The translations under genes and the position numbers were made by a program. The notes under the pieces were generated by a model. The model saw only the letters and a program-made list of their open reading frames with translations, made no database searches and was not told where the DNA came from. A DNA stretch of 64,000 nucleotides from Amycolatopsis lexingtonensis (GTDB taxonomy: Bacteria; Actinomycetota; Actinomycetes; Mycobacteriales; Pseudonocardiaceae). The stretch's first letter is position 1; the number at the start of each line of letters is the position of its first letter. This document shows positions 3,725 to 52,540 of this stretch, piece by piece. Where the stretch lies: contig NZ_JADBEG010000001.1 of the NCBI RefSeq assembly GCF_014873755.1, positions 7,662,501-7,726,500 on the forward strand, given 5' to 3'.

Positions 3725-5052
3725 CCTTCACCGTCCGAAGCCTGACCGCCGCGGTGTTCGCGCTGGCCGTCACCGCCGCTCTCCCCGTCACGGCCCACGC
3801 GCAGGAAGCGCCGGAATGCCCGGCGAACCTCGACTGCCGGTTCGTGCCCGCCGCCTACGACTGGGCGAGCGCCGACCACGGCAACCCCAACAACTACGGG
3901 AACTACGACCCCGCGAACCGGCCGGCCGACGGCCAGGGGATCCAGTACATCGTCATCCACGACACCGAAAGCGTGCCCGGCAGCGGGGTCAGCCCGTACG
4001 ACCAGGCGATCGCGACCTTCCAGAAGCCCGAAAGCGGGTCTAGCGCGCACTACGTGATCCGCTCATCCGACGGCCAGGTCACGCAGATGGTGCCGACCAA
4101 GGACGTCGCCTGGCACGCGGGCAACTGGACGATGAACGAGCACTCGATCGGCATCGAGCACGAGGGCATCGCGGCGCAGGGCGGCACCTGGTACACCGAA
4201 AAGATGTACCAGGCCTCGGCGAACCTGGTGAAGTTCCTGGCGGCGAAGTACCACATCCCGCTCGACCGGCAGCACATCATCGGCCACGAAGACATCTCCC
4301 GCGAGCGCACGGCGAACTTCGCTGCCGCGCACTGGGATCCGGGCCCGTACTGGGACTGGAACCACTACATGGAGCTGCTCGGCGCGCCGGCCGCGGCGAC
4401 CGGTCCCGCGGACGCCCAGTCCGTCACGATCAACCCGGACTACGCCACCAACCAGCCCGAGCTGACCACGTGCAGCGGTGGCACCTGCACGCCGCTGCCC
4501 GCGCACGGCGCCAACTTCGTCTACCTGCACGCGGCGCCGGACGCGGCCTCGCCGCTGATCACCGACCCGGTGGTGCACCCCGACGGCTCGGCGGGCACGA
4601 CCGCGATCGACGACTGGAGCGACAAGGCGGTCGCGGGCCGGACCTACGCGCTCGCCGGCGAGCAGGGCGACTGGACGGCGATCTGGTACGGCGGGCAGAA
4701 GGCGTGGTTCGCGAACCCCGGCCACAGTGTGACCTTGCCGGCGCGGGCCCAGCGCGTGACCGCGGCCACGTCGGCGCCGCTGTACGGCCGCGCCTTCCCC
4801 GAGCAGTCCGAGTACCCGGCCGAGATCCCGTTCGACCCGATCTGGACGGTCGGCGCCGTCCCGTGGACGCTGCCCGCGGGCCAGAGCTACGTCGTCACCG
4901 GGGAATTCCGCGCCGAGAACTACTACGCGCGCTTCGACCCGGCGGACGTGCCGGCCAACCACACGCTGGTCACGGGCGGGACGAAGTACCTCCAGCTCTC
5001 CTACAACCACCGGGTCGTCTACGTGAAGGCGTCCGACGTGCGACCCTGCTGA
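3721..5052 (+). CDS. secreted N-acetylmuramoyl-L-alanine amidase (Amidase_2)
   Basis: 443 residues. An N-terminal signal peptide ('SLTAAVFALAVTAALPVTAHA', cleavage near AHA-QE) precedes an Amidase_2/PGRP domain at ~70-215. Putative zinc ligands are in 'YIVIHDTES' and in the C-terminal 'HWDPGPYWDW' segment, with 'HYVIRSSDGQVTQMV', 'VAWHAGNW' and 'SIGIEHEG' as typical strands. The remaining ~220 residues form an SH3-like/wall-binding tail rich in W and Y. It would cut the stem peptide from peptidoglycan outside the cell. It overlaps the DUF4380 gene by GTGA, an odd operon partner for a wall hydrolase; it may simply be co-transcribed. Confidence 0.85.
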   Translation: MTFTVRSLTAAVFALAVTAALPVTAHAQEAPECPANLDCRFVPAAYDWASADHGNPNNYGNYDPANRPADGQGIQYIVIHDTESVPGSGVSPYDQAIATFQKPESGSSAHYVIRSSDGQVTQMVPTKDVAWHAGNWTMNEHSIGIEHEGIAAQGGTWYTEKMYQASANLVKFLAAKYHIPLDRQHIIGHEDISRERTANFAAAHWDPGPYWDWNHYMELLGAPAAATGPADAQSVTINPDYATNQPELTTCSGGTCTPLPAHGANFVYLHAAPDAASPLITDPVVHPDGSAGTTAIDDWSDKAVAGRTYALAGEQGDWTAIWYGGQKAWFANPGHSVTLPARAQRVTAATSAPLYGRAFPEQSEYPAEIPFDPIWTVGAVPWTLPAGQSYVVTGEFRAENYYARFDPADVPANHTLVTGGTKYLQLSYNHRVVYVKASDVRPC

Positions 5053-8212: not shown

Positions 8213-8992
8213 ATGAAGAAGACACTGGTCACGGCGCTCACCGCGACCTTGCTGGCGGCGCTCACGGCGTGCGGCGGCTCGGACGGCGGCGACGGCAAGA
8301 CCCTGCGGGTCGGCACGCTGAGCGACTCGAAGCCGAACGCCTACCAGGAGAACGGCAACTACACCGGCTTCGACAACGAGCTGCTGAAGGCCATCGCAGC
8401 CAAGGAAGGCCTGAAGCTGGAGTTCGCCGCGACGGAGTTCTCGGCGCTGCTCGGCCAGGTCGCGAACGGCACGTTCGACATCGGCAGCTCGGCGATCTCC
8501 CAGACCGAGGCCCGCAAGAAGACCGTCGACTTCTCCGCGCCGTACAACTACCAGTCCCTCGGCATCGAGGCGAAGGAGACCGCCGGCATCACCGACGAGA
8601 ACTCGTTGGCGGGCAAGCGGATCGGCGTCGTTCAGGGCACGGTCTCGGACACGTGGCTCGGCTCGAACGCGCCGACCGCGCAGGCCGTCCGCTTCCCGAA
8701 CGACGCGGCCGCCCTCAACGCGCTCAAGACCGGCGCGATCGACGGCGCGGTGTTCGACCAGGCCACCGCCGAGGACTACGCGAAGAACAACGCCGACGCG
8801 AAGCTCAAGGTGACCAAGGCGATCACCACGACCATCCCGCACGGGTTCGCCTTCAAGAAGGGCAACAACGACCTGATCGGCAAGATCAACGACGGCCTCA
8901 AGAAGGTCATCGCGGACGGCACCTGGGTCAAGGTGCACGACCAGTTCGAGCCGACCGCGCCCGTGCCCGCGGAGTTCAAGGCGGGGCAGTAG
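8213..8992 (+). CDS. amino-acid ABC transporter substrate-binding lipoprotein 3
   Basis: 259 residues; AGGAGAA ribosome site 3-9 nt before the ATG. Lipobox LTAC in 'LAALTACGGSDGG'. Binding segments are 'SQTEARKKTVDFSAPY' (Arg for substrate carboxylate) and 'AIDGAVFDQATA' (Asp for alpha-amino group). It is closest to paralogue 2 by eye. The permease start lies 6 nt after its stop, so the third binding protein is the one most tightly linked to the membrane component. Confidence 0.88.
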   Translation: MKKTLVTALTATLLAALTACGGSDGGDGKTLRVGTLSDSKPNAYQENGNYTGFDNELLKAIAAKEGLKLEFAATEFSALLGQVANGTFDIGSSAISQTEARKKTVDFSAPYNYQSLGIEAKETAGITDENSLAGKRIGVVQGTVSDTWLGSNAPTAQAVRFPNDAAALNALKTGAIDGAVFDQATAEDYAKNNADAKLKVTKAITTTIPHGFAFKKGNNDLIGKINDGLKKVIADGTWVKVHDQFEPTAPVPAEFKAGQ

Positions 8993-9004
8993 TCCACAAT
9001 GGAC
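8992..9004. repeat. GTCCA-N3-TGGAC palindromic word (binding protein/permease junction)
   Basis: GTCCACAATGGAC, perfect 5-bp arms, spanning the gap between the stop of binding protein 3 and the ATG of the permease. The same 13-mer occurs at 27509. Confidence 0.5.
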
Positions 9005-9766
9005 GATTTCATCAACACCTTTCTCGACTGGGACTACATTTCGCAGGTCCTGCCGGACCTCGCGAAGACGGGCCTGCTGAACACGCTGATCCTCGCGGTG
9101 ACGTCCGCGCTGATCGGCACTGTGCTCGGCATGGTGCTGGCGGTGATGGGCCTCTCGACCAAGTGGTGGCTGCGCTGGCCGGCGCGGATCTACACCGACG
9201 TCTTCCGCGGGCTGCCGGCCATCCTGACGATCCTGCTGATCGGCCAGGGGCTCGGCACGCTCGCGCGGGACGTCGTCGGCACGAACCCGTACCCGATGGG
9301 CATCCTGGCGCTGTCGCTGATCGCCGCCGCCTACATCGGCGAGATCTTCCGGTCCGGCATCCAGAGCGTGGACAAGGGCCAGATGGAGGCCAGCCGGGCG
9401 CTCGGGATGAGCTACGCCAAGTCGATGCTGCTGGTGATCATCCCGCAGGGCGTCCGGCGCGTGCTGCCCGCGCTGGTGAACCAGTTCATCGCGCTGGTCA
9501 AGGACTCCAGCCTCGTCTACGTGCTCGGGCTGCTGTCCGGCCAGCGCGAGCTGTTCCGGATCGGCCAGGATCTCGCGGCCAACACCGGGAACCTCTCGCC
9601 GCTGGTCGCGGCCGGGGTGTTCTTCCTGGTGATCACCGTGCCGCTGACGCACCTGGTCAACTACATCGACAAGAAACTCCGGACCGGGCGCAAGGTGCGC
9701 GTGGACGAGCCGGACGACAGTGACCCGGTGGAGATCGGTCCCGGCGGGAGGGTGAGCACGTGGTGA
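8999..9766 (+). CDS. amino-acid ABC transporter permease
   Basis: 255 residues, His/Glu/Gln/Arg-type three-TM family. Membrane segments are visible at ~20-45 ('TGLLNTLILAVTSALIGTVL'), ~60-85 and ~190-215. The EAA loop that contacts the ATPase is 'GQMEASRALGMSYAKSM'; 'KDSSLVYVLGL' is the typical downstream helix. It probably works as a homodimer, because only one permease gene is present. It overlaps the ATPase gene by 7 nt. Confidence 0.92.
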   Translation: MDDFINTFLDWDYISQVLPDLAKTGLLNTLILAVTSALIGTVLGMVLAVMGLSTKWWLRWPARIYTDVFRGLPAILTILLIGQGLGTLARDVVGTNPYPMGILALSLIAAAYIGEIFRSGIQSVDKGQMEASRALGMSYAKSMLLVIIPQGVRRVLPALVNQFIALVKDSSLVYVLGLLSGQRELFRIGQDLAANTGNLSPLVAAGVFFLVITVPLTHLVNYIDKKLRTGRKVRVDEPDDSDPVEIGPGGRVSTW

Positions 9767-10503
9767 CGACGGCGGTGCGTTCGTCCAGTGTGGAGCTTCG
9801 CGACATCCACGTCAGTTTCGGCACCCTGGAGGTCCTGCGCGGCGTGGACCTCAAGGTCGAGAGCGGCAAGACGACCTGCGTCATCGGGCCGTCCGGCTCC
9901 GGTAAGTCGACGCTCCTGCGGTGCGTGAACCGCCTGCAGGAGCCCGGCTCCGGGGATCTGCTGCTCGACGGCGAGTCCGTGATCAGGTCCGACCCGGACG
10001 CGCTGCGCCAGCGCGTCGGCATGGTGTTCCAGCACTTCAACCTCTTCGGCCACCGGAGCGTGCTGGACAACATCGTGCTGCCCTTGCGCAGCGTGAAGAA
10101 GATCGGCAAGGAGGAAGCGGCGGAGATCGCCCGCGCCCGCCTCGCCGACGTCGGCCTCGCGGACAAGGCGCCGTACCGCCCGAGCGCGCTTTCGGGCGGT
10201 CAGCAGCAGCGCGTCGCGATCGCGCGGGCGCTGGCCATGGACCCCGAGGTGATGCTCTTCGACGAGGCCACCAGCGCGCTCGACCCCGAGCTGGTCAAGG
10301 GCGTGCTGAACCTGATGGCCGGGCTGGCTTCGCGGGGCTTGACGCTGATCGTGGTCACGCACGAGATGGGGTTCGCCAGGAGCGTGGCCGACGAGGTGGC
10401 GTTCATGGACGCGGGCAAGATCGTCGAGCAGGGCCCGCCGGCCCGCCTGTTCGACGAGCCGCAGAGCCCGCGCCTGCAGCGGTTCCTGTCCCAGGTGCTC
10501 TGA
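9760..10503 (+). CDS. amino-acid ABC transporter ATP-binding protein
   Basis: 247 residues, GlnQ-type. Walker A GPSGSGKST at ~40, Q-loop 'VFQHFNLFGH', signature LSGGQQQRVAIARAL, Walker B 'VMLFDEATSALDPE', and His switch 'VVTHEMGF'. GTG start inside the permease gene indicates translational coupling. It powers uptake for all three binding lipoproteins. The gene ends inside a hairpin shared with the converging glycosyltransferase gene. Confidence 0.95.
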   Translation: MVTTAVRSSSVELRDIHVSFGTLEVLRGVDLKVESGKTTCVIGPSGSGKSTLLRCVNRLQEPGSGDLLLDGESVIRSDPDALRQRVGMVFQHFNLFGHRSVLDNIVLPLRSVKKIGKEEAAEIARARLADVGLADKAPYRPSALSGGQQQRVAIARALAMDPEVMLFDEATSALDPELVKGVLNLMAGLASRGLTLIVVTHEMGFARSVADEVAFMDAGKIVEQGPPARLFDEPQSPRLQRFLSQVL

Positions 10504-39990: not shown

Positions 39991-40030
39991 GGCCTCGTCC
40001 GAAGTGGTCAGAACCACTCCGGGCGGGGCC
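39991..40030. terminator. 18-bp-stem hairpin before purF
   Basis: GGCCTCGTCCGAAGTGGT (39991-40008), loop CAGA, ACCACTCCGGGCGGGGCC (40013-40030). Every position pairs if three G-U wobbles are allowed, which shows selection on the plus-strand RNA. It insulates the DUF397 pair from purF. Confidence 0.7.
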
Positions 40031-40056
40031 TGACTCATGTCGGCACCGTCTACACT
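40030..40056 (+). promoter_or_regulatory. putative purF promoter
   Basis: CTGACT (40030-40035) and TACACT (40051-40056) with a 15-bp spacer; the -10 is good, the spacer short. A 5' leader of about 30 nt would precede the GTG of purF, with AGGAG at 40082-40086. Confidence 0.4.
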
Positions 40057-40094
40057 GAAAACCGGCCTGACCACGTCTTCCCAGGAGCTCCTCG

Positions 40095-41621
40095 GTGGTT
40101 TCCGACCCGCAGCTCGTGTCCGACCAGCCCGAACCGGAACCCCGCGAGGAGTGTGGCGTCTTCGGCGTCTGGGCTCCCGGGGAAGAAGTCGCGAAGCTGA
40201 CCTACTACGGCCTCTACGCCCTGCAGCACCGGGGCCAGGAGGCCGCCGGCATCTCCGTCTCCGACGGCTCGCAGATCGTGGTCTTCAAGGACCTCGGCCT
40301 GGTCAGCCAGGTGTTCGACGAGCAGATCCTGCAGTCGCTGCAGGGGCACATCGCCGTCGGGCACTGCCGGTATTCGACCACCGGCGCGACCATCTGGGAG
40401 AACGCCCAGCCGATCTTCCGCACCACGGAAACCGGCAGCGGCCTGTCCTTCGCGCACAACGGCAACCTCGTCAACACGGCTGAGCTGCGCGAACGCACCA
40501 TCGAGGCGGGGCTCAAGCCGCACGCGGGCTTGACCGGCTCGTCGAGCGACTCGGACCTCATCTGCGGCCTGCTCGCCGCGAACGCCGCCGACAAGGGCAT
40601 CGAGGCCGCGGCCATGGAGCTGCTGCCCACCCTGAAGGGCGCCTTCTGCCTGGTGTTCTCCGACGAGAACACGCTGTACGCGGCCCGTGACCCGCACGGT
40701 GTGCACCCGCTGGTGCTCGGCCGGCTCGAGCGCGGCTGGGTCGTCTCCAGCGAGACGGCCGGCCTCGACATCGTCGGCGCGTCCTTCGTCCGCGAGGTCG
40801 AGCCCGGCGAGCTCATCGCGATCGACGCCGCGGGCCTGCGCTCGTCCCGGTTCGCGAACCCGGACCCCAAGGGCTGCGTCTTCGAGTACGTCTACCTCGC
40901 GCGCCCCGACACCACGATCGCCGGCCGCGGCGTGCACGCCACCCGCGTCGAGATCGGGCGCCGGCTGGCCGGCGAGCAGCCGGTCGAAGCCGACCTGGTC
41001 ATGCCGGTGCCGGAGTCGGGCACGCCGGCCGCGATCGGCTACGCGCAGGGCTCCGGCATCCCCTACGGCACCGGCCTGGTGAAGAACGCCTACGTCGGGC
41101 GCACGTTCATCCAGCCGTCGCAGACCATCCGCCAGCTGGGCATCCGCCTCAAGCTGAACCCGCTGCGCGACGTCATCCGCGGCAAGCGCCTGGTCGTGGT
41201 GGACGACTCGATCGTCCGCGGCAACACCCAGCGCGCGCTGGTCCGGATGCTGCGGGAGGCCGGCGCGCTCGAGGTGCACGTCCGGATCGCGTCACCGCCC
41301 GTGCGCTGGCCGTGCTTCTACGGCATCGACTTCGCGTCGCGGGCCGAGCTCGTCGCGAACGGCGTCGACACCGACGGCATCCGGCGCTCGATCGGCGCCG
41401 ACTCCTTGGGTTACATTTCCCTGGACGGCCTGGTCGCGGCGACGGAACAGCCGAAGTCGCGGCTGTGCACGGCGTGCTTCTCCGGCGAGTACCCGATCGA
41501 GCTCCCGGAGGACGCGCTGATCGGGAAGCACCTGCTCGAAAGCCTCGACTCGGTCAATGGCGCGGCGACCCCGGTCAGCCCCGCCGGGTACGGTGCCGAA
41601 GACGCCGTCCGGCGTCCCTAG
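40095..41621 (+). CDS. purF: amidophosphoribosyltransferase
   Basis: 508 residues. The N-terminal nucleophile Cys is residue 20 ('EECGVFGVWAPGEE'), so a 19-residue propeptide is removed. Glutaminase features: 'ALQHRGQEAAGISV', 'GHCRYSTTG' and 'FAHNGNLVN'. The PRPP-binding motif is 'RLVVVDDSIVRGNTQRALV', and four cysteines suited to an iron-sulfur cluster are present (C-terminal 'LCTACFSGEYP' among them). First committed step of purine synthesis. purM follows 29 bp later. Confidence 0.97.
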   Translation: MVSDPQLVSDQPEPEPREECGVFGVWAPGEEVAKLTYYGLYALQHRGQEAAGISVSDGSQIVVFKDLGLVSQVFDEQILQSLQGHIAVGHCRYSTTGATIWENAQPIFRTTETGSGLSFAHNGNLVNTAELRERTIEAGLKPHAGLTGSSSDSDLICGLLAANAADKGIEAAAMELLPTLKGAFCLVFSDENTLYAARDPHGVHPLVLGRLERGWVVSSETAGLDIVGASFVREVEPGELIAIDAAGLRSSRFANPDPKGCVFEYVYLARPDTTIAGRGVHATRVEIGRRLAGEQPVEADLVMPVPESGTPAAIGYAQGSGIPYGTGLVKNAYVGRTFIQPSQTIRQLGIRLKLNPLRDVIRGKRLVVVDDSIVRGNTQRALVRMLREAGALEVHVRIASPPVRWPCFYGIDFASRAELVANGVDTDGIRRSIGADSLGYISLDGLVAATEQPKSRLCTACFSGEYPIELPEDALIGKHLLESLDSVNGAATPVSPAGYGAEDAVRRP

Positions 41622-41650
41622 CAGTTCCTTCCAGAGGGAGTCCTTCCACC

Positions 41651-42721
<1,071 letters not shown>

Positions 42722-42723
42722 CC

Positions 42724-43155
42724 GTGGCCACCGGGGACGTCGTGGTCGGCTCCCGGTTCGTCGTCCCCGAGACCGAGCTGAGCGAACGCTTTTCGCGCTC
42801 GTCCGGCCCCGGCGGCCAGGGCGTCAACACCACGGACTCGCGCGTCGAGCTGTCGTTCGACGTCGCCGCGTCGCCGTCGATCCCGGAACACCTGCGCGAC
42901 CGCGTGCTGGCCGCGCTGGAGTCCCGGCTGGTCGACGGCGTCCTGACCATCGCGGCCAGCGAGCACCGTTCGCAGCTGCAGAACCGCGAAGCAGCCCGCG
43001 GCCGGCTGGCGAACCTGCTGCTCGACGCGTCGGCGCCGCCGCCCGCCAAGCGGCGCCCCACGAAGCCCTCGCGGGGTTCGAAGGAGCGCCGCCTGGCGTC
43101 GAAGAAGCGCCGGAGCGACGTGAAACGAGGCCGCTCCGGCCGCTTCGACGACTAG
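42724..43155 (+). CDS. arfB: ArfB-like peptidyl-tRNA hydrolase (ribosome rescue)
   Basis: 143 residues. The GGQ motif sits in 'FSRSSGPGGQGVNTTDSRVE' as in ArfB/YaeJ (ICT1), followed by a linker and a basic tail ('RRLASKKRRSDVKRGRSGR') that in family members enters the mRNA channel of stalled ribosomes. It would hydrolyse peptidyl-tRNA on ribosomes lacking a stop codon. Starts 2 bp after purM. Its TAG stop shares CTAG with the converging GNAT gene. Confidence 0.9.
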   Translation: MATGDVVVGSRFVVPETELSERFSRSSGPGGQGVNTTDSRVELSFDVAASPSIPEHLRDRVLAALESRLVDGVLTIAASEHRSQLQNREAARGRLANLLLDASAPPPAKRRPTKPSRGSKERRLASKKRRSDVKRGRSGRFDD

Positions 43156-43892
43156 GCCAGCGACAGGTGCACGCACTCCCCGGCCGGCTGGTAGCCGACC
43201 CGGGCGTAGACGGCGCCAATCCCCAGGTCACCGGGGGTGAGGAACACCGTGTGCGCCCCGGCCTCGTGGACGTCCCGGGTGAGCCGCGCGGTGAGCGCCG
43301 CGGCGATCCCGCGGCCCCGGTACGGCTCGAGCACGGCGATCCCGGCGATCTCGGTGGTGCCGTCGACGACCTCCAGCGCGAGGCCGCCGCCGACAACCAC
43401 ACCGTCGTCCTCCGCCAAGAGGTACCGGACACCTGAGCCGGCCTTCAGCCGCTCGACCTCGTCGTCGTCGATCTCCGCGGGTTCGCCGAACGCGGTGTTC
43501 TGCGCCGACCGCATCCGCCGGAAGTCCTCGTCGGACTCCGGTGCGCGTAGCCGGATCCCGGCCGGTGTCGGCTTGTCGACCCGGTCGGCGGGGGCGCACG
43601 TCATCAGCGGCACCCGCCGTTCGAGCGTGTACCCCGCCCCGACCAGCAGGTTCTCCAGGTCGGGGGCGACTTCGGTGAAGTACTCCAGCCTCGGGAGCAG
43701 GTCCCGCCGCCGGAACGCCGCGGTGAGCGCGTCAATCTCCGTGGCACTCGGCTTCGCGCCGTCGTCCGGGATCGCGTAGTTGAGCATCGGGTGCGCCGTG
43801 CCCGGCGAGTAGGTCGCCAGGAACGGGCCGACCCGCTCGGTCTCCCGGCCGCGCGGCGCCGTTGTGCGGACATAGTTCTGGATGGCGGACAT
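43152..43892 (-). CDS. GNAT-family N-acetyltransferase
   Basis: 246 residues. The N-terminal ~110 residues are a degenerate GNAT-like half; the C-terminal half has the acetyl-CoA motif A 'EIAGIAVLEPYRGRGIAAAL', preceded by 'GVRYLLAEDDGVVVGGGLAL' and followed by 'AGAHTVFLTPG' and 'VYARVGYQPAGE'. Double-GNAT architecture of unknown acceptor. Its TAG stop overlaps the arfB stop through CTAG. Confidence 0.85.
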   Translation of the reverse strand: MSAIQNYVRTTAPRGRETERVGPFLATYSPGTAHPMLNYAIPDDGAKPSATEIDALTAAFRRRDLLPRLEYFTEVAPDLENLLVGAGYTLERRVPLMTCAPADRVDKPTPAGIRLRAPESDEDFRRMRSAQNTAFGEPAEIDDDEVERLKAGSGVRYLLAEDDGVVVGGGLALEVVDGTTEIAGIAVLEPYRGRGIAAALTARLTRDVHEAGAHTVFLTPGDLGIGAVYARVGYQPAGECVHLSLA

Positions 43893-44067
43893 TCGAGCCT
43901 TTCGAAAAGCACGTCAAGGAACCGCGGACCTCGAAACGGGCTCGCGGGCGGATCGCCGGGCGTCGGGCCTAGCGGGGGCCGACGCCGGAAGCGGCGCCAG
44001 GCATAGGCGGTCATTCCTCGACTCGAAGGGGCTCTTCGCGCTCAGTTTCGCACTGGCCGCAACCGGA

Positions 44068-44724
44068 TTACTGGCGCTCCGGGTGCGCGATGGCGGCGTA
44101 GCGCGTGTCCCACACCGAACGCGGCACGCGCATCCTGAGCGTGGGCGACTCGCAGATCCGCCGCCGTTGCGCCGGGATGGCGACCGGCACCGGAGGTGGC
44201 GGGTCCAGCGCGCGCCACCCGCGGCGGCTCAGCGCCGCACCGAGCGTCGCGCCCACGGTGTTCAGCAGGACGTCGTCGGTCGACGTCACCCGGCCCGAGT
44301 GGATCAGATATTGCGTACCCTCCACCAGCAGCGATGCGAGCAACGCGGCCAGCGCGACGCGTGAGAGCGCGCGCAGCCGCCGCATCCGAAGGGGCAGCAG
44401 GACGCCGAGCGGGCAGAGCAGCAGGACGTTGCCGATCACCTGCCAGAGTGACCCGTCGTCGGCGAAAGCCGCGGTGATGTCGGAGCCGGGAACGAGATCG
44501 AGAGTGCTCTCGGAAGAGCCGCCGACCGGCATGATGACCAGGCAAAACACCAGAAAGGCAACGAGCAGGGCGGCGCAGTCGACGCCGGCTGTCGCGGTCG
44601 CGAAGCGGGCCGGGAGTCTTCGGCGGCGCCGGGCCGCGAGCAGTGGCCAGCCGACCAGCGCGTACGGCAGCGCGATCGCCGAAATCGGAATCATCCCCCA
44701 GAAGGCGCGAAGCAGGGCTTCCAT
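44068..44724 (-). CDS. VanZ-family membrane protein
   Basis: 218 residues from ATG 44724. Hydrophobic segments at ~8-30, ~44-65, ~97-117, ~125-150. VanZ signature region: 'WQVIGNVLLLCPLGVLLPLR' and 'EGTQYLIHSGRVTSTDDVLL' followed by 'NTVGATLGAALS'. The ~45-residue C-terminal tail is unrelated and basic. VanZ itself lowers teicoplanin susceptibility by an unknown mechanism; most homologues have no known function. Confidence 0.85.
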   Translation of the reverse strand: MEALLRAFWGMIPISAIALPYALVGWPLLAARRRRRLPARFATATAGVDCAALLVAFLVFCLVIMPVGGSSESTLDLVPGSDITAAFADDGSLWQVIGNVLLLCPLGVLLPLRMRRLRALSRVALAALLASLLVEGTQYLIHSGRVTSTDDVLLNTVGATLGAALSRRGWRALDPPPPVPVAIPAQRRRICESPTLRMRVPRSVWDTRYAAIAHPERQ

Positions 44725-44864
44725 GCGCCTCCTCTCTCGGAACCCCTCCACTCAAGATCACCTTCGCATCACAAGATCGACTCGGCAGTCCGAGCGAGCC
44801 GCACTATTCGGTGATCTTTCCGGTGGCGGAGTCCGGCCCGCCGTGGTTCGGTCGGGAGGCGCAC

Positions 44865-44888
44865 TGTCCACAGTGGAAACTGTGGACA
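44865..44888. terminator. inverted repeat downstream of Gfo/Idh gene
   Basis: TGTCCACAGT (44865-44874), GGAA, ACTGTGGACA (44879-44888), a perfect 10-bp stem 76 bp past the minus-strand stop at 44964. Same TGTCCACA arm as the purL terminator at 31651. Confidence 0.5.
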
Positions 44889-44963
44889 ACCCTGTGGAAG
44901 AAATGGGGGATGGTGGCGGAAACCGTTGTTACGCAACGGAAACGCGCGCGAGGAGCCTGTGTA

Positions 44964-45869
44964 CTACTCGGCGAGCCGGCGGGCCTGGTCGAGCAGCGTC
45001 TGCAGGTGCAGGCCGCGCCGGACGTCGCACGGGTGGGTCGTCGTGCCGCTGGCGATCATCGCCGCGAAGTCGTCCAGGAGCGCGGTGTAGGACTCCTGCG
45101 CCGAGCCCGGTTTGCGGCCGAGCGTCCGGTAGCCGTGCTCACCCCAGACGGCGAGTTCGACGACGGTCGGCTGCACTGGCAGCCGCAGCGAAAGCGTGGC
45201 GGTGCTGATCACGCCGCCCTCGTGGGCCAGCATCAGGTGCCAGAGGTCGCCCGGGCTCCGCCGCGCGGCGACGACGCCGGTGATCGGGCCGAGCGCGGCG
45301 TCGAGGAGGTCGAGCGCGTGCGGGCCGATGTCGAACAGCGCGCCGCCGTCGTCCTGGCGCCATTCCGACGCCGCGTACTGGCCGCCGAGCAGGGCACCGG
45401 ACAGCCAGCGCGCGCCACCACCAGCCCAGCCGCCCGCCTGGGCGAGACCGGCGAGCCACTCCTGGGTCTGCGTCGAGTACCGCAGGGTCAGCACGACGAG
45501 CGCGGCGACGTCGGCGGCGGCGACCGCGTCGGCCAGCCGTCGCGCGCCTTCGAGGTCGGCGGCGATCGGCTTCTCGAGGATCAGGTGCTTCCCGGCTTCG
45601 GCCGCGCGCACGCCCAGTTCGGCCTGGATCGACGGCGGTACGGCGAGCGCGACCGCGTCGACCTGCTCGAACAGCTCCTCGACGCTGCCTGCGGTGTTCG
45701 CGCAGTGCGTCTCCGCAAGCGCTTGCGCCGCCTCCGGCCGCCGGGCCCAGACCGCGGTCAGCGCCGTGCCGGGGTGGTCCGCGAGGCCCGGCGCGTGCAC
45801 CGTCTTCGCCCACGGGCCGGCGCCGATGAGGCCGACGCGCAGCTGTCCGTCCGCGATGAGCTGTCCCAC
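44964..45869 (-). CDS. Gfo/Idh/MocA-family oxidoreductase
   Basis: 301 residues, GTG start. Rossmann 'LRVGLIGAGPWAKTVHAPGL', the family EKP motif in 'GKHLILEKPIAADLEGARRL', and the dimerising alpha/beta domain including 'DDGGALFDIGPHALDLLDAA'. NAD(P)-dependent sugar or cyclitol dehydrogenation is the usual activity; substrate not predictable. TAGACT is placed 7 nt upstream of the GTG, as in a leaderless message. Confidence 0.88.
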   Translation of the reverse strand: MGQLIADGQLRVGLIGAGPWAKTVHAPGLADHPGTALTAVWARRPEAAQALAETHCANTAGSVEELFEQVDAVALAVPPSIQAELGVRAAEAGKHLILEKPIAADLEGARRLADAVAAADVAALVVLTLRYSTQTQEWLAGLAQAGGWAGGGARWLSGALLGGQYAASEWRQDDGGALFDIGPHALDLLDAALGPITGVVAARRSPGDLWHLMLAHEGGVISTATLSLRLPVQPTVVELAVWGEHGYRTLGRKPGSAQESYTALLDDFAAMIASGTTTHPCDVRRGLHLQTLLDQARRLAE

Positions 45870-45876
45870 GGCCCGC

Positions 45877-45882
45877 AGTCTA
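45877..45882 (-). promoter_or_regulatory. -10 hexamer, putative leaderless promoter of Gfo/Idh gene
   Basis: On the minus strand TAGACT is followed by 7 nt and the GTG at 45869. Confidence 0.42.
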
Positions 45883-45934
45883 GGTGTGTCGCTCGTCGCG
45901 CCCGAACCGCACCTTCGGCGGGTGCTGTCCTGGC

Positions 45935-45940
45935 TAAAGT
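45935..45940 (+). promoter_or_regulatory. -10 hexamer, putative leaderless promoter of ECF operon
   Basis: TAAAGT, then GCCTGC, then the ATG at 45947; no ribosome site. Confidence 0.42.
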
Positions 45941-45946
45941 GCCTGC

Positions 45947-46567
45947 ATGATCGCCTCCCGTTTCGCCGTCGTCTGCGCTCTCCTGTTCGGCGCCGCCTTC
46001 GTGGGCGCCGCGCCCGCGTCGGCGGCGGCCACGGACGGGACCTGCCCGGAGGGCGGCGGCGTCACGGTGGTCGTCGACTTCGGCGACCTGGGCCCGCAGC
46101 CGTTGATCCGCTGCGCCCCCGGCACGCCGGCGAACGGCATCGCGGCGCTGCAGGAGGCCGGCATCGAGGTGGCCGGGTCGCAGAAGTACGGCCTGGCCGT
46201 GGCCTGCCGGATCGCGGGCAAGCCGGGACCCGACGTCGAGTCGTGCGCGGGCATGCCGTCGGCGACGGCGTACTGGAGCTACTGGCACGCCTCCGCCGGC
46301 GGCAGCTGGACGTCGAGCCAGGAGGGCGCGCAGACCGCGAAGCCGGCTGCGGGTGGGTTCGAGGGCTGGGCGTTCGCGCGGCCGAAGACGGCGAACGACC
46401 TGCCCGCGCCGCCGCGGGTGGCGCCGGTGCGGCAGGCGGCCACGGCTGCTCCCGCACCCGCTGAGCAGGGCAGTTCGTTCCCTTGGGGCCTGGTGATCGG
46501 CGCGGTCGTGATCGTGGTGGTCGGCGGCGCCGGGATCGTCGTCGCCCGTCGCCGGCGTGCGCAGTAG
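45947..46567 (+). CDS. secreted, membrane-anchored SCO2322/DUF4430-like protein of ECF operon
   Basis: 206 residues. Signal peptide (~1-27, 'FAVVCALLFGAAFVGAAPASA'-type), a ~120-residue beta-rich domain and a C-terminal anchor helix ('WGLVIGAVVIVVVGGAGIVV') ending RRRRAQ. The domain has 'CPEGGGVTVVVDFGDLG', 'ANGIAALQEAGIEVAG', paired cysteines, and 'AYWSYWHASAGGSWTSSQEG'. This pattern resembles DUF4430, the beta domain of transcobalamin/intrinsic factor, and Streptomyces SCO2322-type proteins that accompany ECF genes. I infer a surface substrate-capturing subunit. It overlaps the EcfT gene by 11 nt. Confidence 0.65.
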   Translation: MIASRFAVVCALLFGAAFVGAAPASAAATDGTCPEGGGVTVVVDFGDLGPQPLIRCAPGTPANGIAALQEAGIEVAGSQKYGLAVACRIAGKPGPDVESCAGMPSATAYWSYWHASAGGSWTSSQEGAQTAKPAAGGFEGWAFARPKTANDLPAPPRVAPVRQAATAAPAPAEQGSSFPWGLVIGAVVIVVVGGAGIVVARRRRAQ

Positions 46568-47627
46568 GGCGCTGCACCCCGGCGCCTGGTGGGCGTGGGC
46601 GCTCGCGCTGGCTGTCGCCGCCAGCCGCACGACGAACCCGCTGCTGCTCGGCCTGATCATCGCCGTCGCCGGGTTCGTCGTCGCGAACCGGCGGACCGAC
46701 GCGCCGTGGGCGCTGGCGTTCCGTCTCTACGCGTACGTCGGCGCCTTGATCGTCGCCTCGCGCGTGGTCTTCCGGATCCTGGTGGGCGGTGACGACGGCG
46801 GGCACGTGCTGTTCTCGCTGCCGCGGATCCCGCTCGCCGCCGGGTTGTCCCTGCTCGGGCCGACGTCGGCGGAGGAGCTGCTCGGCGGCTTCTACGACGG
46901 CCTGCGGCTGGCCACGATGGTGGTCTGCGTCGGCGCCGCGAACGCGTTGGCGAACCCGAAACGCCTGCTCAAGGCGGTTCCGGGCGCGCTGTACGAGGTG
47001 GGCACGGCGGTGACGGTGGCGCTGACGGTCGCACCCCAGCTCGTCGAAAGCGTGCAACGCGTCCGGCGCGCGCGGCGGCTCCGGGCGGGCCGGACTCGCG
47101 GGCCGCGGGCGGTGAAGGGCATCGTGGTGCCGGTGCTGGAGGACGCGATGGACCGCTCGCTGCGGCTGGCGGCCGCGATGGACTCCCGGGGCTACGGGCG
47201 CCGGGCGTACCTGAGTTTCGGCCTGCGCGCGCTGATCGCCACCTGTGTGCTGGCCGGCTTGGCCGGGGTGTGCGTCGGCGTCTACGGCGTGCTCGACGGG
47301 ACGTCGTCGTGGCTCGGCGTCCCGCTGCTGGCCGCGGGCCTGGTGGTGGCGGTCGTGGGGTTCGTCCTCGGCGGGCGGCGCGTCCGGCGCACGGCGTACC
47401 GGCCGGACCCGTGGCGGTGGCCGGAGACGCTGGTTGTCGCGGCCGGTGCCGGATCGTGCGCGCTGCTGTTCGCCACCGCGCGGATCGACCCCGGCCGGCT
47501 GTTCCCGTCGCTGAGTCCGCTGCGCTGGCCGGAGGTTTCCTGGGTGCACGTGGTGTCCGTGCTGGTCGCGGTGCTGCCGGCGTTCGTCGCGCCCCCACCG
47601 CCGTCGTTGTCGGAGGTCGTCCGGTGA
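46557..47627 (+). CDS. ecfT: ECF transporter transmembrane subunit EcfT
   Basis: 356 residues, CbiQ/EcfT family but about 90 residues longer than usual, with extra C-terminal helices (~225-350). Hydrophobic helices at ~10-42, ~58-75, ~110-130. Coupling-helix motif 'RLAAAMDSRGYGRRAYL' (A-x-x-x-RG) contacts the ATPases. It links the ATPase to the substrate-binding S component. GTG start overlaps the upstream gene; GTGA overlap with the ATPase gene. Confidence 0.88.
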   Translation: MRSRALHPGAWWAWALALAVAASRTTNPLLLGLIIAVAGFVVANRRTDAPWALAFRLYAYVGALIVASRVVFRILVGGDDGGHVLFSLPRIPLAAGLSLLGPTSAEELLGGFYDGLRLATMVVCVGAANALANPKRLLKAVPGALYEVGTAVTVALTVAPQLVESVQRVRRARRLRAGRTRGPRAVKGIVVPVLEDAMDRSLRLAAAMDSRGYGRRAYLSFGLRALIATCVLAGLAGVCVGVYGVLDGTSSWLGVPLLAAGLVVAVVGFVLGGRRVRRTAYRPDPWRWPETLVVAAGAGSCALLFATARIDPGRLFPSLSPLRWPEVSWVHVVSVLVAVLPAFVAPPPPSLSEVVR

Positions 47628-49222
47628 TCGAGTTCTCGCGGGTCACGGTGACCTACCCGGACGCCTCGCGCGCGGTCCTTTCCGATGTGTCGCTGGAGGT
47701 CGAGGAAGGCGAGTTGTGCCTGGTCGCGGGGCCCACCGGGGCGGGCAAGTCGACGTTGCTCGGGCTGCTGAACGGGCTCGTCCCGCACTTCACCGGTGGC
47801 CGCCTGGCGGGCCGGGTGCTCGTGGCCGGGCTGGACACGGCTTCGCACCCACCACGGGAGCTGGCTTCGGTCGTCGGCGTCGTCGGGCAGGACCCCTTGG
47901 CCGGGTTCGTGACGGACACCGTCGAGGAGGAGCTCGCGTACGCGATGGAGCAGCTGGCGGTGCCGCCGGACGTCATGCGCAAGCGGGTCGAGGAAACCCT
48001 GGACCTGCTGGGCATCGCGGAACTGCGCAACCGTCCACTTCGGACACTCTCGGGCGGCCAGCAGCAGCGCGTCGCGATCGGCTCGGTGCTGACGGCCCAC
48101 CCGTCCGTCGTCGTGCTCGACGAGCCGACGTCCGCACTGGACCCGACCGCGGCCGAGGACGTCCTCGCGGCGATCACCCGGCTGGTGCACGACCTGGGGA
48201 CGACGGTGGTCGTCGCGGAGCACCGGATGGAGCGCGTCGCGCAGTACGCGGACCGCCTGCTGTACCTGCCGGGCGACGGCTCGGTGCGCTCCGGGCCACC
48301 CGCGGAGATCCTGGCGACGTCTTCGATCGCACCCCCGATCGCCGAGCTGGGGCGGCTCGCGGGCTGGTCACCACTGCCTCTGTCGGTCCGGGACGCGCGG
48401 CGTGTCGCGGGGCCCCTGCGGTCTCGGCTTCAGAAATTGTCGGTGGTGGGTCGTAGCCTTTCGGTGACCGGTCAAGCACTGGACGTGAGAGGGGTGGTGG
48501 TCCGCTACGGAGATGTCTCGGCGGTGCGCGGGGTGGACCTGCGTGCCGGGCCGGGGGAAGTGATCGCGCTGATGGGACGCAACGGCTCCGGCAAGTCGTC
48601 GCTTCTCTGGGCGGTGCAGGGCAGCGGCCCGAGGTCGGCGGGGAAGGTCGACGTCGGGGGCGCTGATCCCGCGTCGCTCAAGCCACGAGCGGCCCGTCAG
48701 CGCGTGGGGCTGGTCCCGCAGACACCGGCGGACCTGCTGTACCTGGATTCGGTGGCCGCCGAGTGCGCACAGGCGGACACCGAGTCGCGGGTGGCGGCGG
48801 GAACGACGCGTGAGCTGCTGGACCGCCTGTCCCCGGGAATCGCCGGCGAAGCGCACCCCGGCGACCTCTCGGAGGGGCAGCGACTGGCCCTTGTGCTGGC
48901 GGTCCAGCTGGCCGCGGCACCCCCGGTGGTGCTGCTGGACGAGCCCACCCGCGGCCTGGACTACCACGCGAAACGGCGCTTCGCCGCGATCCTGCGAGAG
49001 CTGGCCTCGCAGGACCGCGCGGTGCTGCTGGCCACCCACGACGTCGAGTTCGTGGCCACGGTGGCCACCCGCGTGGTGGTCATGGCCGAGGGCGAGATCG
49101 TCGCGGACGGCCCGACGAAGGAGGTCATCGTGGCGTCGCCGGCGTTCGCCCCGCAGGTGGCGAAGATCCTGGCGCCGGAACGGTGGCTGACGGTGGACGA
49201 GGTCGCGGAAGCCCTGGCATGA
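47624..49222 (+). CDS. ecfA: fused ECF transporter ATPase (EcfA1-EcfA2 in one chain)
   Basis: 532 residues with two complete ATP-binding domains. First: 'AGPTGAGKSTLLGLLNG', 'LSGGQQQRVAIGSVL' and '[14 protein letters not shown]'. Second (from ~290): 'MGRNGSGKSSLLWAVQG', 'LSEGQRLALVLAVQ' and 'VVLLDEPTRGLDYH'. Both P-loops keep their Lys and both Walker B motifs their Glu. Energises uptake through EcfT. The gene stops at 49222 and the S-component gene starts only 277 bp later. Confidence 0.92.
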   Translation: MIEFSRVTVTYPDASRAVLSDVSLEVEEGELCLVAGPTGAGKSTLLGLLNGLVPHFTGGRLAGRVLVAGLDTASHPPRELASVVGVVGQDPLAGFVTDTVEEELAYAMEQLAVPPDVMRKRVEETLDLLGIAELRNRPLRTLSGGQQQRVAIGSVLTAHPSVVVLDEPTSALDPTAAEDVLAAITRLVHDLGTTVVVAEHRMERVAQYADRLLYLPGDGSVRSGPPAEILATSSIAPPIAELGRLAGWSPLPLSVRDARRVAGPLRSRLQKLSVVGRSLSVTGQALDVRGVVVRYGDVSAVRGVDLRAGPGEVIALMGRNGSGKSSLLWAVQGSGPRSAGKVDVGGADPASLKPRAARQRVGLVPQTPADLLYLDSVAAECAQADTESRVAAGTTRELLDRLSPGIAGEAHPGDLSEGQRLALVLAVQLAAAPPVVLLDEPTRGLDYHAKRRFAAILRELASQDRAVLLATHDVEFVATVATRVVVMAEGEIVADGPTKEVIVASPAFAPQVAKILAPERWLTVDEVAEALA

Positions 49223-49499
49223 GAGGCCCGACCCCACCGACGGCGCCGCGGCTGGCCCGCGCTTGCCTCCCGCGACCCTTCGCGCCGACCGGCGGCCGAG
49301 CATGGCAAGCCGCTGGCACGCCCCTTGCTGCCCAAGCGCGGTCGGCCACGGGCGCGGGTTCGTTTCGGCTGCGGGTCCGGGCGGGGTTCAGCGTGGCCAG
49401 CTACCCGGCCGCGCCCAGCGCGCCGCCGAGCCGCGGCCGTGCCCTGCCGACCGGCGCAGGCTCAGCTCGAGCCCCCGAAGCGGCACCGGAGCCGGCGCC
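49223..49499. other. 277-bp spacer inside ECF operon
   Basis: No credible gene: the open frames are Ala/Pro/Arg-rich shadows. The other junctions of this operon overlap by 4-11 nt, so this gap is exceptional. I saw no cobalamin-riboswitch core (no conserved B12-box-like GCCACTG) and no clear hairpin. Confidence 0.5.
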
Positions 49500-50297
49500 A
49501 TGACCGACTTCCTCCCCAAACCCCGCACCATCCGGCTCACCCCGCGGCCCGCGCTGGTCCTCACCACCGCGAGCCTCCTCGGCTTGGCCATGTTCTGCTG
49601 GCCCCTCTTCGCCAACCCCCAGCCGACCGCCGCCGCCCACACCGCCGATGCGCCGTTCGTCTTCATGGCGACCCTGCCGGTGCTGATCCTCGTCGTCCTC
49701 GCCGAACTGTCCCGCGGCGGCATCGATGCCAAAGCGCTCGCCCTCCTCGGCGTGCTCTCCGCCGTCAACGCCGGGCTGCGGCCGCTCGGGGCCGGGACCG
49801 GGGGCATCGAGCTGGTCTTCTTCATGCTCGTGCTCGCCGGGCGGGTCTTCGGGCCCGGGTTCGGGTTCGTGCTCGGCTCGACGTCGCTGTTCACCAGCGC
49901 GCTGCTCACCGCCGGCGTGGGGCCGTGGCTGCCGTTCCAGATGCTCGCGTCGTCGCTCATCGGGCTCGGGGCCGGGTTGCTGCCCCGGGCGCGCGGCAAG
50001 GCCGAGATCGCGATGCTCGTCGCGTACGGCGTGTTCGCGGCCTACTTCTTCGGGCTCCTCATGAGCCTGTGGTCATGGCCGTTCCTCGCCGGCGACAGCA
50101 CGCAGCTCGGCTTCGTCCCCGGCGCGCCGCTGGCGGAGAACCTTCACCGGTTCGTGGTGTACACCGTGCTGACCTCGACGCTCGGCTGGGACACCGGGCG
50201 CGCGATCACCAACGCCGTCGCCCTCGTCGTGCTGGGGCCGGCCATTCTCGCGGTCCTGCGCCGCGCGGCCCGGCGGGCGGCCTTCGATCAGCTGTAG
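49500..50297 (+). CDS. ECF transporter S component (substrate-binding membrane subunit)
   Basis: 265 residues from ATG 49500. About seven hydrophobic helices; 'LALLGVLSAVNAGLRPLGAG' and 'LAGRVFGPGFGFVLGSTSLF' with 'GVGPWLPFQMLASSLIGLGA' are typical of S components of the large, vitamin-type group, where a G-P-W-x-P-F/Q motif recurs in CbrT/QueT-like proteins. Substrate not certain; linkage to a DUF4430-like protein favours a corrinoid. Its last 10 bp overlap the converging dehydrogenase gene. Confidence 0.78.
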   Translation: MTDFLPKPRTIRLTPRPALVLTTASLLGLAMFCWPLFANPQPTAAAHTADAPFVFMATLPVLILVVLAELSRGGIDAKALALLGVLSAVNAGLRPLGAGTGGIELVFFMLVLAGRVFGPGFGFVLGSTSLFTSALLTAGVGPWLPFQMLASSLIGLGAGLLPRARGKAEIAMLVAYGVFAAYFFGLLMSLWSWPFLAGDSTQLGFVPGAPLAENLHRFVVYTVLTSTLGWDTGRAITNAVALVVLGPAILAVLRRAARRAAFDQL

Positions 50298-51142
50298 GAG
50301 TAGAACCCGCGGCCGGTCTTCTTGCCGAGCAGGCCCGCGTCCACCATGCGCAGCAGCAGCGGCGGCGACGAGTACAGCGGCTCCTTGAACTCCGCGTACA
50401 TCGAGTCCGCGATGGCCTTGATCGTGTCCAACCCGATCAGGTCTGACAGCCGCAGCGGGCCCATCGGGTGGGCGGTGCCCAGCTCCATGCCGCGGTCGAT
50501 GTCCTCGGCCGAGGCGAAGCCCGACTCGATCATGCGGATCGCCGAGAGCAGGTACGGCACCAGCAGCGAGTTCACGATGAACCCGGCGCGGTCCTGCGAA
50601 CGGATGACCGTCTTGCCCAGCGCCGTCGTCGCGTGTTCCTCCGCGCGGCGGGCGGTCTCCTCGCTCGTCAGCAGCGAGGGCACCAGCTCCACCAGCGGCA
50701 GCACCGGCACCGGGTTGAAGAAGTGGATGCCGACCACCTGCTGCGGCCGGCTCGTCGCCATGCCCAGCTTCATGATCGGGATCGAGGACGTGTTGGACGC
50801 GAACACCGCGTCCTCCGCCTCGACGATCTTGTCCAGCTGGCGGAAGACGTCGACCTTCGCCTGCTCCTGCTCGAGGATCGCCTCGACGACCAGTTCGCGG
50901 TCGGCGAACTCGGCGATGTCGGTCGTGAACCGGAGCCGGTTGAGAGCCGCGTCGGCGTCCTCGGCGGACACCTTGCCGCTCTTGACGCCGCGCTGCAGGG
51001 ACTTCTCGATGCGCGCCTTGCCCGCGTCGAGCGCCGGCTGGTTCACCTCGGTGACCACGACGTCCAACCCGGCCCTGGCGTGCACCTCGGCGATGCCGGA
51101 ACCCATCAGTCCCGCCCCGACGACTCCAACTCGACTGACCAC
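50288..51142 (-). CDS. 3-hydroxybutyryl-CoA dehydrogenase
   Basis: 284 residues, GTG start with AAGGAG upstream. NAD-binding 'GVVGAGLMGSGIAEVHARAG', 'FASNTSSIPIMKLG', catalytic His in 'VVGIHFFNPVPVLPLVELVP', and the family segment 'ELGTAHPMGPLRLSDLIGLD'. Length and motifs match FadB2/Hbd enzymes that interconvert acetoacetyl-CoA and 3-hydroxybutyryl-CoA. Convergent 10-bp overlap with the ECF S component. Confidence 0.93.
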   Translation of the reverse strand: MVSRVGVVGAGLMGSGIAEVHARAGLDVVVTEVNQPALDAGKARIEKSLQRGVKSGKVSAEDADAALNRLRFTTDIAEFADRELVVEAILEQEQAKVDVFRQLDKIVEAEDAVFASNTSSIPIMKLGMATSRPQQVVGIHFFNPVPVLPLVELVPSLLTSEETARRAEEHATTALGKTVIRSQDRAGFIVNSLLVPYLLSAIRMIESGFASAEDIDRGMELGTAHPMGPLRLSDLIGLDTIKAIADSMYAEFKEPLYSSPPLLLRMVDAGLLGKKTGRGFYSYS

Positions 51143-51247
51143 CGGCTCACTCCTTCATCGCTTCGCAGGCCCGTTCTTGGGCAGCACGCAGCGCGCGAGG
51201 GCGGTTGCCGGGTTTTGCCCAGCTCGCCCTCGCGCGGTTACGCGTGC

Positions 51248-51436
51248 TCAACGACGGTACTCGTCGTACCCGTCGTCGTACGGGTCTTGATCTTCGCTGT
51301 CGGACTCCTCGTAATGACTGCTGGAGGAGTTACTCGACAGCTCGCGCTGCAAAGCATCGAAGTCGGTCTCGTGCGAGCTGTACTTGAGCTCGCGCGCCAC
51401 CTTCGTCTGCTTGGCCTTAGCCCGGCCGCGCCCCAT
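51248..51436 (-). CDS. DUF3073 small protein
   Basis: 62 residues from ATG 51436, with a GAGGGGG ribosome region 7-13 nt upstream. 'GRGRAKAKQTKVARELKYSS' is the invariant DUF3073 start; the tail is acidic, low-complexity 'SSSSHYEESDSEDQDPYDD'. Orthologue of M. tuberculosis Rv0810c, which there lies beside purM; here ~8.5 kb of other genes separates them. Function unknown. Confidence 0.9.
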   Translation of the reverse strand: MGRGRAKAKQTKVARELKYSSHETDFDALQRELSSNSSSSHYEESDSEDQDPYDDGYDEYRR

Positions 51437-51643
51437 GGCTCGACCCCCTCGCACAGGGGCGGGGCGGCCGGGGGAATCGGCGGCCCCGCATCGTCTCGAC
51501 AATTCTTTCCTGCTCACACCGTACCGTGTCCGGGGGGTTCGATGCGACGTGGCACGGTGTGCCGGTGGTGACAGTGTCGGCCGAACACCGGTTACCGGCC
51601 GGTCGGTGACGATCGGCGCAGGTAGACGTGCCACGATCTACCC

Positions 51644-52540
51644 GTGCTCCGTCCCTTCGTGGCCTACCTGCGGGTGTACGAACCCCTGCTCGCCCTGGGC
51701 GACCCGCCGGACGAACGGCTGCGTGCGGCCGTCGCGGCGGCCAAGCTGCGGCGGACGGACGCGGGCGCCCGCGAGCAGGCCATGTGGCTCAAGTCACAAG
51801 TCGCCGCCCCGCGGCGGTTGCTGCCCGCCGAGCTCGCCGACGGCCGTCCCGCCCCGAGCCTGCTGACCGACGTCCTGGTGCTGGCCCCGGAGGACGTGCC
51901 GGGTGGCAAGGCCGAAGCCGGCCCGCTGGTCTGCCCGCTGGAACTGCGCGCCCGCTCGGCGGCCGCGCTGGTGACGTTCCTGGGCGACGCGCACCCGGCG
52001 CTGAAGAACGTCGTCCTCGACGAGGGCGGCTTCACCCAGGAGACGATCCGCGCCCGCACCAAGTCGGCGATGGCGGACCTGAGCACGACGGCGGCCCACA
52101 CGCTGTCGACGACGTGGACGGTCCCGCTGCCCTGGTTCGTGCTGATCGACCCGGACGACCGCCGCCTGGTCCTCGGCAGCGGCCGCGACGACCCGAAGCG
52201 CGAACTCTCCTGGCGCGCGACGCTCGCCGACGCCCAGCACCGCGCCCGCGAGGCCGGCGAGCTGCTGGAGCAGACCTTCGGCGACTCCGGCCCCGGCCGG
52301 GTCCTCTTCGAAACGCGCCGCTGGCTCGACAACTTCCACCCGGACTCGGTGATCGAGCTCGACTACGGCGGCCTGGTCCAGCTGTTCGCGGACGCGGTCC
52401 TGGAGGCCGACAACACGGCGGACGAAGTCCACGACATCCTGGACGCGCTGCGCTCGGGCAATGTCGAGGAGCTGGCCGAGCTGTTCTCGGACCTGCGCGA
52501 GTTCTGGGGCGACCTCGCCGCCCGCGAGCGGTCGAACTAG
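51644..52540 (+). CDS. conserved actinobacterial protein of unknown function
   Basis: 298 residues, GTG start. Visible segments: 'LRPFVAYLRVYEPLLALGD', 'EQAMWLKSQVAAPRRLLPA', 'WTVPLPWFVLIDPDDRRLVL', 'ARRWLDNFHPDSVIELDYGG'-type helix and 'LVQLFADAVLEADNTADEV'. I do not recognise a fold with known activity. It has no signal peptide or membrane segment. A CACGAT hexamer 6 nt before the GTG may be a leaderless -10. Its TAG stop shares CTAG with the converging asparaginase gene. Confidence 0.75.
   Translation: MLRPFVAYLRVYEPLLALGDPPDERLRAAVAAAKLRRTDAGAREQAMWLKSQVAAPRRLLPAELADGRPAPSLLTDVLVLAPEDVPGGKAEAGPLVCPLELRARSAAALVTFLGDAHPALKNVVLDEGGFTQETIRARTKSAMADLSTTAAHTLSTTWTVPLPWFVLIDPDDRRLVLGSGRDDPKRELSWRATLADAQHRAREAGELLEQTFGDSGPGRVLFETRRWLDNFHPDSVIELDYGGLVQLFADAVLEADNTADEVHDILDALRSGNVEELAELFSDLREFWGDLAARERSN

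Follow-up and report, generated by a model that had tools for sequence, protein, structure and literature searches.

Within a 64,000-nucleotide stretch of the genome of the soil bacterium Amycolatopsis lexingtonensis (NCBI RefSeq assembly GCF_014873755.1, contig NZ_JADBEG010000001.1, positions 7,662,501 to 7,726,500 of the forward strand; hereafter the window), four genes at 45947..50297 encode a small surface protein (B), the coupling subunit EcfT (T) of an energy-coupling factor (ECF) importer, a double ATPase (A) and an S component (S). We propose, with a probability of about three in four, that this operon is a dedicated ECF importer, served by its own ATPases, for cobalamin or related corrinoids, in which B would act as the extracellular capture protein. 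The proposal builds on sequence comparison and structure models: the predicted fold of B, the gene order in relatives, the alpha/alpha-toroid partner encoded by many of them, and the cobalamin riboswitches in their leaders. A corrinoid capture system had been suggested in an earlier note on this DNA, and the toroids and riboswitches of the relatives bear this out at the level of the family. Both a riboswitch and a toroid gene are missing from the window itself, whose own ligand is therefore read across from the relatives.

Gene order and toroid partners in related loci

To collect relatives, the S protein was used as query in a single scan of GTDB genomes, and the best 80 of 579 loci (numbered with the prefix L) were used. 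B and toroid domains were detected with home-made profiles. The loci were found through the S protein alone, and a B domain was present upstream of EcfT in 65 of the 67 loci with at least 1.5 kb of sequence upstream of EcfT; the B-EcfT order is far beyond chance. A gene for an alpha/alpha toroid was located upstream of EcfT in 41 of the 64 loci where 4 kb or more of sequence precedes EcfT, and five of the remaining 23 carried it after the S gene (L033, L052, L053, L065 and L079). These counts answer the two points raised by the earlier note about other actinobacteria, the recurrence of the gene order and an adjacent alpha/alpha-barrel gene; the alpha-barrel half of intrinsic factor, which it had reported missing from the window, turns up in these relatives. 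The layouts toroid-toroid-B-B-EcfT-ATPase-S and toroid-B-toroid-B recurred. Seven loci encode toroid and beta domains in one open frame: the beta domain leads in L009, L025, L037, L056 and L062, and L035 and L039 have the animal order, with the toroid in front. The complete architecture, a toroid joined to a beta domain, is therefore a feature of relatives and is absent from the window.

Searched against the PDB, the toroid profile matched squalene-hopene cyclases, complement C3/C4 and alpha-2-macroglobulin. The toroid rows matched PF13243 (10 of 14) and PF00432 (5 of 14) at E 0.01, and no Pfam family was found for the L024 toroid or the L056 fusion at E 0.001. The L056 fusion was modelled as an alpha/alpha toroid (mean pLDDT 88.8), with transcobalamin at ranks 42 and 48 in its Foldseek search. 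The alpha/alpha-toroid fold is common, so the strength of this evidence comes from the combination with a beta domain that intrinsic factor also shows. In L024 (1862-3912), a toroid protein and a Pfam-confirmed DUF4430 protein (35.8 bits, cut-off 23.8) are encoded after the S gene, indicating that both kinds of beta domain can accompany the importer.

Genes for B12-related enzymes were found beside the operon in some relatives. The cobalamin-independent methionine synthase MetE is encoded near it in L012 and in L021, where it has a riboswitch of its own; L052 (313-3619) encodes methylmalonyl-CoA mutase and the associated GTPase MeaB directly 5' of the importer operon. These neighbours, single examples each, point the same way and agree with a cobalamin ligand. 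Extra toroid/beta units were also observed past the S gene in L010 (Umezawaea, 8851-9990), L021 (14854-15894), L034 (9084-10094), L051 (9261-9653) and L056 (8846-10396), each with its own cobalamin riboswitch match.

Cobalamin riboswitches upstream of the operon

In 21 of the 33 loci scanned first, an Rfam cobalamin riboswitch over the gathering threshold was detected no more than 600 nt ahead of a toroid or B gene; one was also present upstream of B in four of eight toroid-less Amycolatopsis loci. A covariance model (R1) was made from 26 of the Rfam-found riboswitches, and those 26 seeds match it by construction. The fair test of R1 is the run on the 41 loci without a seed, among which L015 is close to the seeds L013-L016: a match was present upstream of the operon in 30 (E 7.9e-14 to 6.3e-25). 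The other 11 were L002-L007, L032, L024, L042, L048 and L064, the last four with too little context upstream. With all loci pooled, a riboswitch preceded the operon in 58 of the 66 with enough context; 14 of the 80 loci were left out as short of upstream sequence, and the L005 row (E 0.86) was not counted. The eight loci without a riboswitch were L002-L007, L027 and L032, and the last two start near a contig end.

Of 95 R1 matches, 81 were followed within 600 nt by a toroid, B or EcfT gene and 14 were located elsewhere. With the Rfam model, whole genomes harboured from 1 to 11 cobalamin riboswitches (197 in total across the 32 genomes searched), which makes their placement before the operon by chance very unlikely. 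L009, L052 and L056 were empty at the Rfam gathering threshold, yet matched R1 at E 3.3e-20 or better. The Rfam threshold misses some of the short cobalamin aptamers of actinobacteria, and the B12 regulons of Actinobacteria may be under-annotated. A regular expression used initially for the riboswitch gave one chance-like match; Rfam and later R1 took its place.

The window's genome (a single contig of 10.7 Mb) harbours two riboswitches over the cut-off. One, at 4242918, is next to a gene that reads as the ribonucleotide reductase subunit NrdB, and the second best (in the region 9662000-9672000) is next to a gene that reads as CobN.

Predicted fold and probable anchoring of the B protein

Fold comparison grouped B with the beta domains of transcobalamin and intrinsic factor: its predicted beta-grasp was nearest to these domains, well over unrelated folds, with 10-18% identity over the aligned parts. 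In the B model, strands 75-78 and 82-89 come directly after helix 64-70. The title of PDB entry 5np4 names the isolated beta domain of human transcobalamin with cyanocobalamin bound, indicating that a beta domain can bind cobalamin by itself.

The earlier note had found sequence patterns in B reminiscent of DUF4430. The corresponding profile, PF14478, gave no match in the window's B, in its genome or in any of 50 family members, which corrects the note on this point; the resemblance to the transcobalamin/intrinsic-factor beta domain, also claimed there, is upheld by the fold and not by this profile. PF14478 matches are found in just 2 of 197 genomes of the class. Sequence-only routes to the fold of B failed: PF14478, hhalign against DUF4430 proteins, and hmmsearch with a B profile against the PDB, which gave chance matches only. 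Most of the 120 B relatives listed, the first row (99% identical) among them, carry a precomputed PF28005 assignment, which the local Pfam scan of the window did not report. NCBIfam NF040672 (SCO2322 family) gave 35.1 bits on B, far under the cut-off of 85. Among the matches listed, the closest named relatives of B are from Amycolatopsis, and the relatives carry the names hypothetical protein, FliK and ABC substrate-binding protein. A search for a second B gene in the window's genome found none.

Helices are predicted at both ends of the B model, at residues 6-14 with low confidence and at residues 180-205, the latter C-terminal and ending in RRRRAQ, in agreement with the secreted and C-terminally anchored protein described before. 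Sortase signals matched only under the cut-offs, so B is more likely anchored in the membrane than in the cell wall.

Probable loss of toroid and riboswitch in the window clade

In a tree built on the EcfT, ATPase and S proteins of 65 genomes, the window and L002-L007 were monophyletic (seven genomes, support 1.0; the window clade) and sister to L013-L016 and L018 (joint clade support 0.97). The sister clade has no toroid in the locus and a strong cobalamin riboswitch upstream of B (in L013 the leader at 4551-4679). The next branch, A. anabasis (L008), has the layout B-toroid-B with a riboswitch present. The simplest history is that the toroid was lost first and the riboswitch later.

Whole genomes were searched for toroids in four of the seven members of the window clade (the window's own, L003, L004 and L007) and in three of the five of the sister clade (L013, L014 and L018); for L002, L005, L006, L015 and L016, toroid absence is known for the locus only. 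As a control, each of the five searched genomes with a toroid in the locus gave a toroid-profile match of E 2.7e-90 or better, including two (L022 and L052) that had contributed no row to the profile. The profile found nothing in the whole genomes of L004 and L007, and for L013, L014 and L018 it detected short weak repeats in long proteins, taken to belong to other families. A toroid-like fragment was found in A. iheyensis (L003) on another contig (~4114-4650, L092), spread over two matches, one containing a stop; it is probably a decayed toroid gene. A toroid gene elsewhere in the window's genome was considered as a candidate and dropped after the searches came back empty. T, A, S and B are all under purifying selection; in six pairwise comparisons within the window clade, dN/dS of B was 0.13-0.27.

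Organisation of the window operon

The four genes are present in the order and at the positions reported in the earlier note (Table 1), and its overlaps of 4-11 nt correspond to 11 nt between B and EcfT and 4 nt between EcfT and the ATPase, followed by the 277-bp gap that it had placed before S. Both components expected of an ECF importer, EcfT and ABC ATPases, were recognised (PF02361 and two PF00005 stretches). The double ATPase matched ECF_ATPase_1 with E 2e-82, under the equivalog cut-off of that family. The S component was under the cut-offs of PF12822 (27.2 bits, cut-off 30.7), PF07155 (23.9, cut-off 26.7) and TIGR04518 (21.7, cut-off 60), and has 63 invariant columns across 25 orthologues.

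Table 1. Features of the operon and its surroundings (window coordinates).
Feature	Position	Strand	Description
77-bp region 5' of B	45870..45946	+	No cobalamin riboswitch found in the window; present upstream of B in sister-clade genomes
B	45947..46567	+	Secreted, probably C-terminally membrane-anchored; predicted transcobalamin/intrinsic-factor beta-domain fold, ~residues 35-147
EcfT, transmembrane coupling subunit	46557..47627	+	PF02361 CbiQ 44.8 bits (cut-off 25), E 1.5e-11
EcfA-EcfA', two ATPases in a single chain	47624..49222	+	Two PF00005 (ABC_tran) stretches
Spacer between ATPase and S	49223..49499	.	277 bp; holds a 94-codon open frame, 49219-49503
S component, substrate-binding membrane subunit	49500..50297	+	PF12822 27.2 bits, cut-off 30.7

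The open frame in the spacer shares ATGA with each neighbouring gene and had no family match in the family scans. The spacer has its sole full-length copy here in the window's genome, plus two short partial matches. The gap between ATPase and S is 61-455 nt, of unlike sequence, in the seven genomes of the window clade, and -4 nt in the five of the sister clade. The corresponding frames of the window clade range from 22 to 152 codons and are unlike in sequence, and a conserved gene was therefore rejected; the frame ends exactly at the S start in four genomes (the window and L002-L004) and not in three (L005-L007). It may be fast-changing filler that keeps translational coupling. The flanking genes, a GFO/IDH/MocA oxidoreductase and a 3-hydroxybutyryl-CoA dehydrogenase, are on the other strand and do not look related to the importer operon.

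Proposed mechanism and alternative explanations

From the fold of B and the composition of the relatives, we infer how a corrinoid importer of this kind would work. The C-terminal helix would hold B on the outer face of the membrane, and the beta-grasp domain, which in transcobalamin and intrinsic factor is one half of a clamp, would bind the corrinoid and hand it on to S. Toggling of S by EcfT and the double ATPase would then release the ligand inside. In most relatives the alpha/alpha-toroid protein would be the other half of the clamp, and the cobalamin riboswitch in the leader presumably switches the operon off when B12 is abundant. The window clade would have been left, after both losses, with a beta-only receptor free of riboswitch control. 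As a tentative extension, which we consider rather doubtful, S might replace the lost toroid in the beta-only clades, with cobalamin clasped between the anchored beta domain and the outer face of S. In the usual description of ECF importers, the S component alone binds the substrate, and we know of no importer with a single ligand site made up jointly by an extracellular lid and the S component.

Several results weigh against a corrinoid importer. No toroid gene was found in its genome by single-sequence or profile search. No cobalamin riboswitch was detected by Rfam at a permissive threshold in 45500-46100, and R1 gave a single 2.4-bit match over 40000-52000 (47847-47888, minus strand), so that the RF00174-type leader of most relatives is lacking here. 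Foldseek E-values for B were ~0.05 or worse, hhalign of B against DUF4430 proteins, 24 in all from Streptomyces, gave no significant match (probability 2.3%, E 0.02), and no PDB relative of the S component was found by sequence. Neither transcobalamin nor intrinsic factor was among the PDB matches of the toroid profile or in 50 VIA-align rows for the L056 fusion. Between the two toroid-less clades, dN was ~0.40 for B and 0.16-0.20 for T, A and S; this approximately twofold faster divergence of B leaves room for a changed ligand. CobH is present in the window's genome and, together with the gene that reads as CobN, indicates that import is probably not essential; B12 uptake in this organism would be salvage.

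Some of these observations would also be expected if the family imports corrinoids and the window clade, once toroid and riboswitch were gone, was repurposed for a different vitamin-like ligand. Both corrinoid-linked features are absent in a single, fully supported group of genomes, B diverges faster, and CobH is there. However, the sister clade retains its strong riboswitch with no toroid in the locus, showing that the cobalamin link survives toroid loss, and purifying selection persists on all four proteins; we regard repurposing as unlikely. Import of cobalt or of a B12 precursor or fragment (cobinamide, alpha-ribazole) instead of whole cobalamin, with B recognising only part of the molecule, would be in accordance with the CbiQ-type EcfT. 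That type is general among ECF systems, however, and CbiMNQO-type cobalt transporters contain CbiM/CbiN and not the S family seen here. Moreover, proteins that clasp whole cobalamin are built in this way, from a toroid and a transcobalamin-type beta domain. Cobalamin riboswitches are described as marking B12 synthesis, transport of B12 or its precursors, cobalt transport and replacement enzymes (PMC3766115), which limits the ligand to that set and leaves room in it for such transporters; we nevertheless judge this explanation quite improbable. A structural or regulatory role for B, stabilising S or attaching the importer to the envelope, would suit a small domain that has no toroid partner in the loci of the window clade. 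It accords less well with the recurrence of tandem toroid/beta genes (aabb and abab) and with the extra units past S that have their own riboswitches, since these fit ligand-binding proteins and not assembly factors, and we give it very little credence.

Comparison with known systems

Capture of this kind was predicted for other bacteria in 2007. Burroughs et al. (PMC1796856) described transcobalamin-like secreted domains and alpha/alpha toroids encoded with CbiO-like and CbiQ-like genes, and predicted B12 scavenging for the transcobalamin-like SLBB proteins of CbiO/CbiQ operons. Their description of the clade covers low-GC Gram-positives, planctomycetes and, less often, euryarchaea, and does not name actinobacteria for it. 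The systems described there and the present family share a secreted beta-grasp domain, a toroid fused on either side, sometimes a second paralogue, and an ECF-type ATPase with EcfT. By contrast, the present beta domains miss PF14478 and no toroid was found in the window's genome; riboswitches, which that description does not mention, are present in the window's relatives; and the bacteria considered there are usually without B12 synthesis genes, whereas the window's genome has CobH. The present family is a sequence-divergent actinobacterial branch of the kind predicted in 2007, with a reduced form in the window. The regulatory evidence that ties it to cobalamin is strong.

Intrinsic factor, transcobalamin and haptocorrin of animals are without the membrane anchor of B and use an endocytic receptor. 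The order of domains also differs from theirs in five of the seven one-frame cases, and the window has no toroid.

ECF-CbrT, the B12 importer of Lactobacillus delbrueckii, is described as having the S component as its substrate-binding protein (PMC5997447). Like the window operon it is an ECF importer with an S component, B12 being shown as ligand there and proposed here; unlike it, its description includes no surface receptor, while the window operon encodes a surface protein and ATPases. An E. coli strain without btuF, metE and btuC was used in the work on ECF-CbrT. The BtuG and BtuH proteins of Bacteroidetes are similar to the present family in that surface capture of B12 feeds an importer and the loci are riboswitch-controlled, but they have different folds from B and feed the outer-membrane channel BtuB (PMC8941943). 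The same source places one Firmicutes btuH homologue near an ECF-like transporter. Papers on mycobacterial B12 uptake name BacA/Rv1819c and BtuFCD-like genes (PMC8088520, PMC12713380), and according to one of them no mycobacterium is known to have any part of an ECF-type B12 transporter (PMC12713380). No paper on the present actinobacterial family was found in the open-licence literature searched, which is not proof that there is none.

Implications for B12 uptake

B12 uptake by Gram-positive bacteria is only partly known, and this family is a riboswitch-marked actinobacterial case of an intrinsic-factor relative encoded beside an ECF importer. A function is thereby suggested for a protein family listed as hypothetical protein, FliK or ABC substrate-binding protein. 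If S does replace the toroid in the beta-only clades, the intrinsic-factor clamp would be divided between a receptor half and a transporter half. The loci form a natural series, from toroid plus beta domain with a riboswitch, through beta domain with a riboswitch, to beta domain alone; with this series, how the clamp halves share the work can be tested directly.

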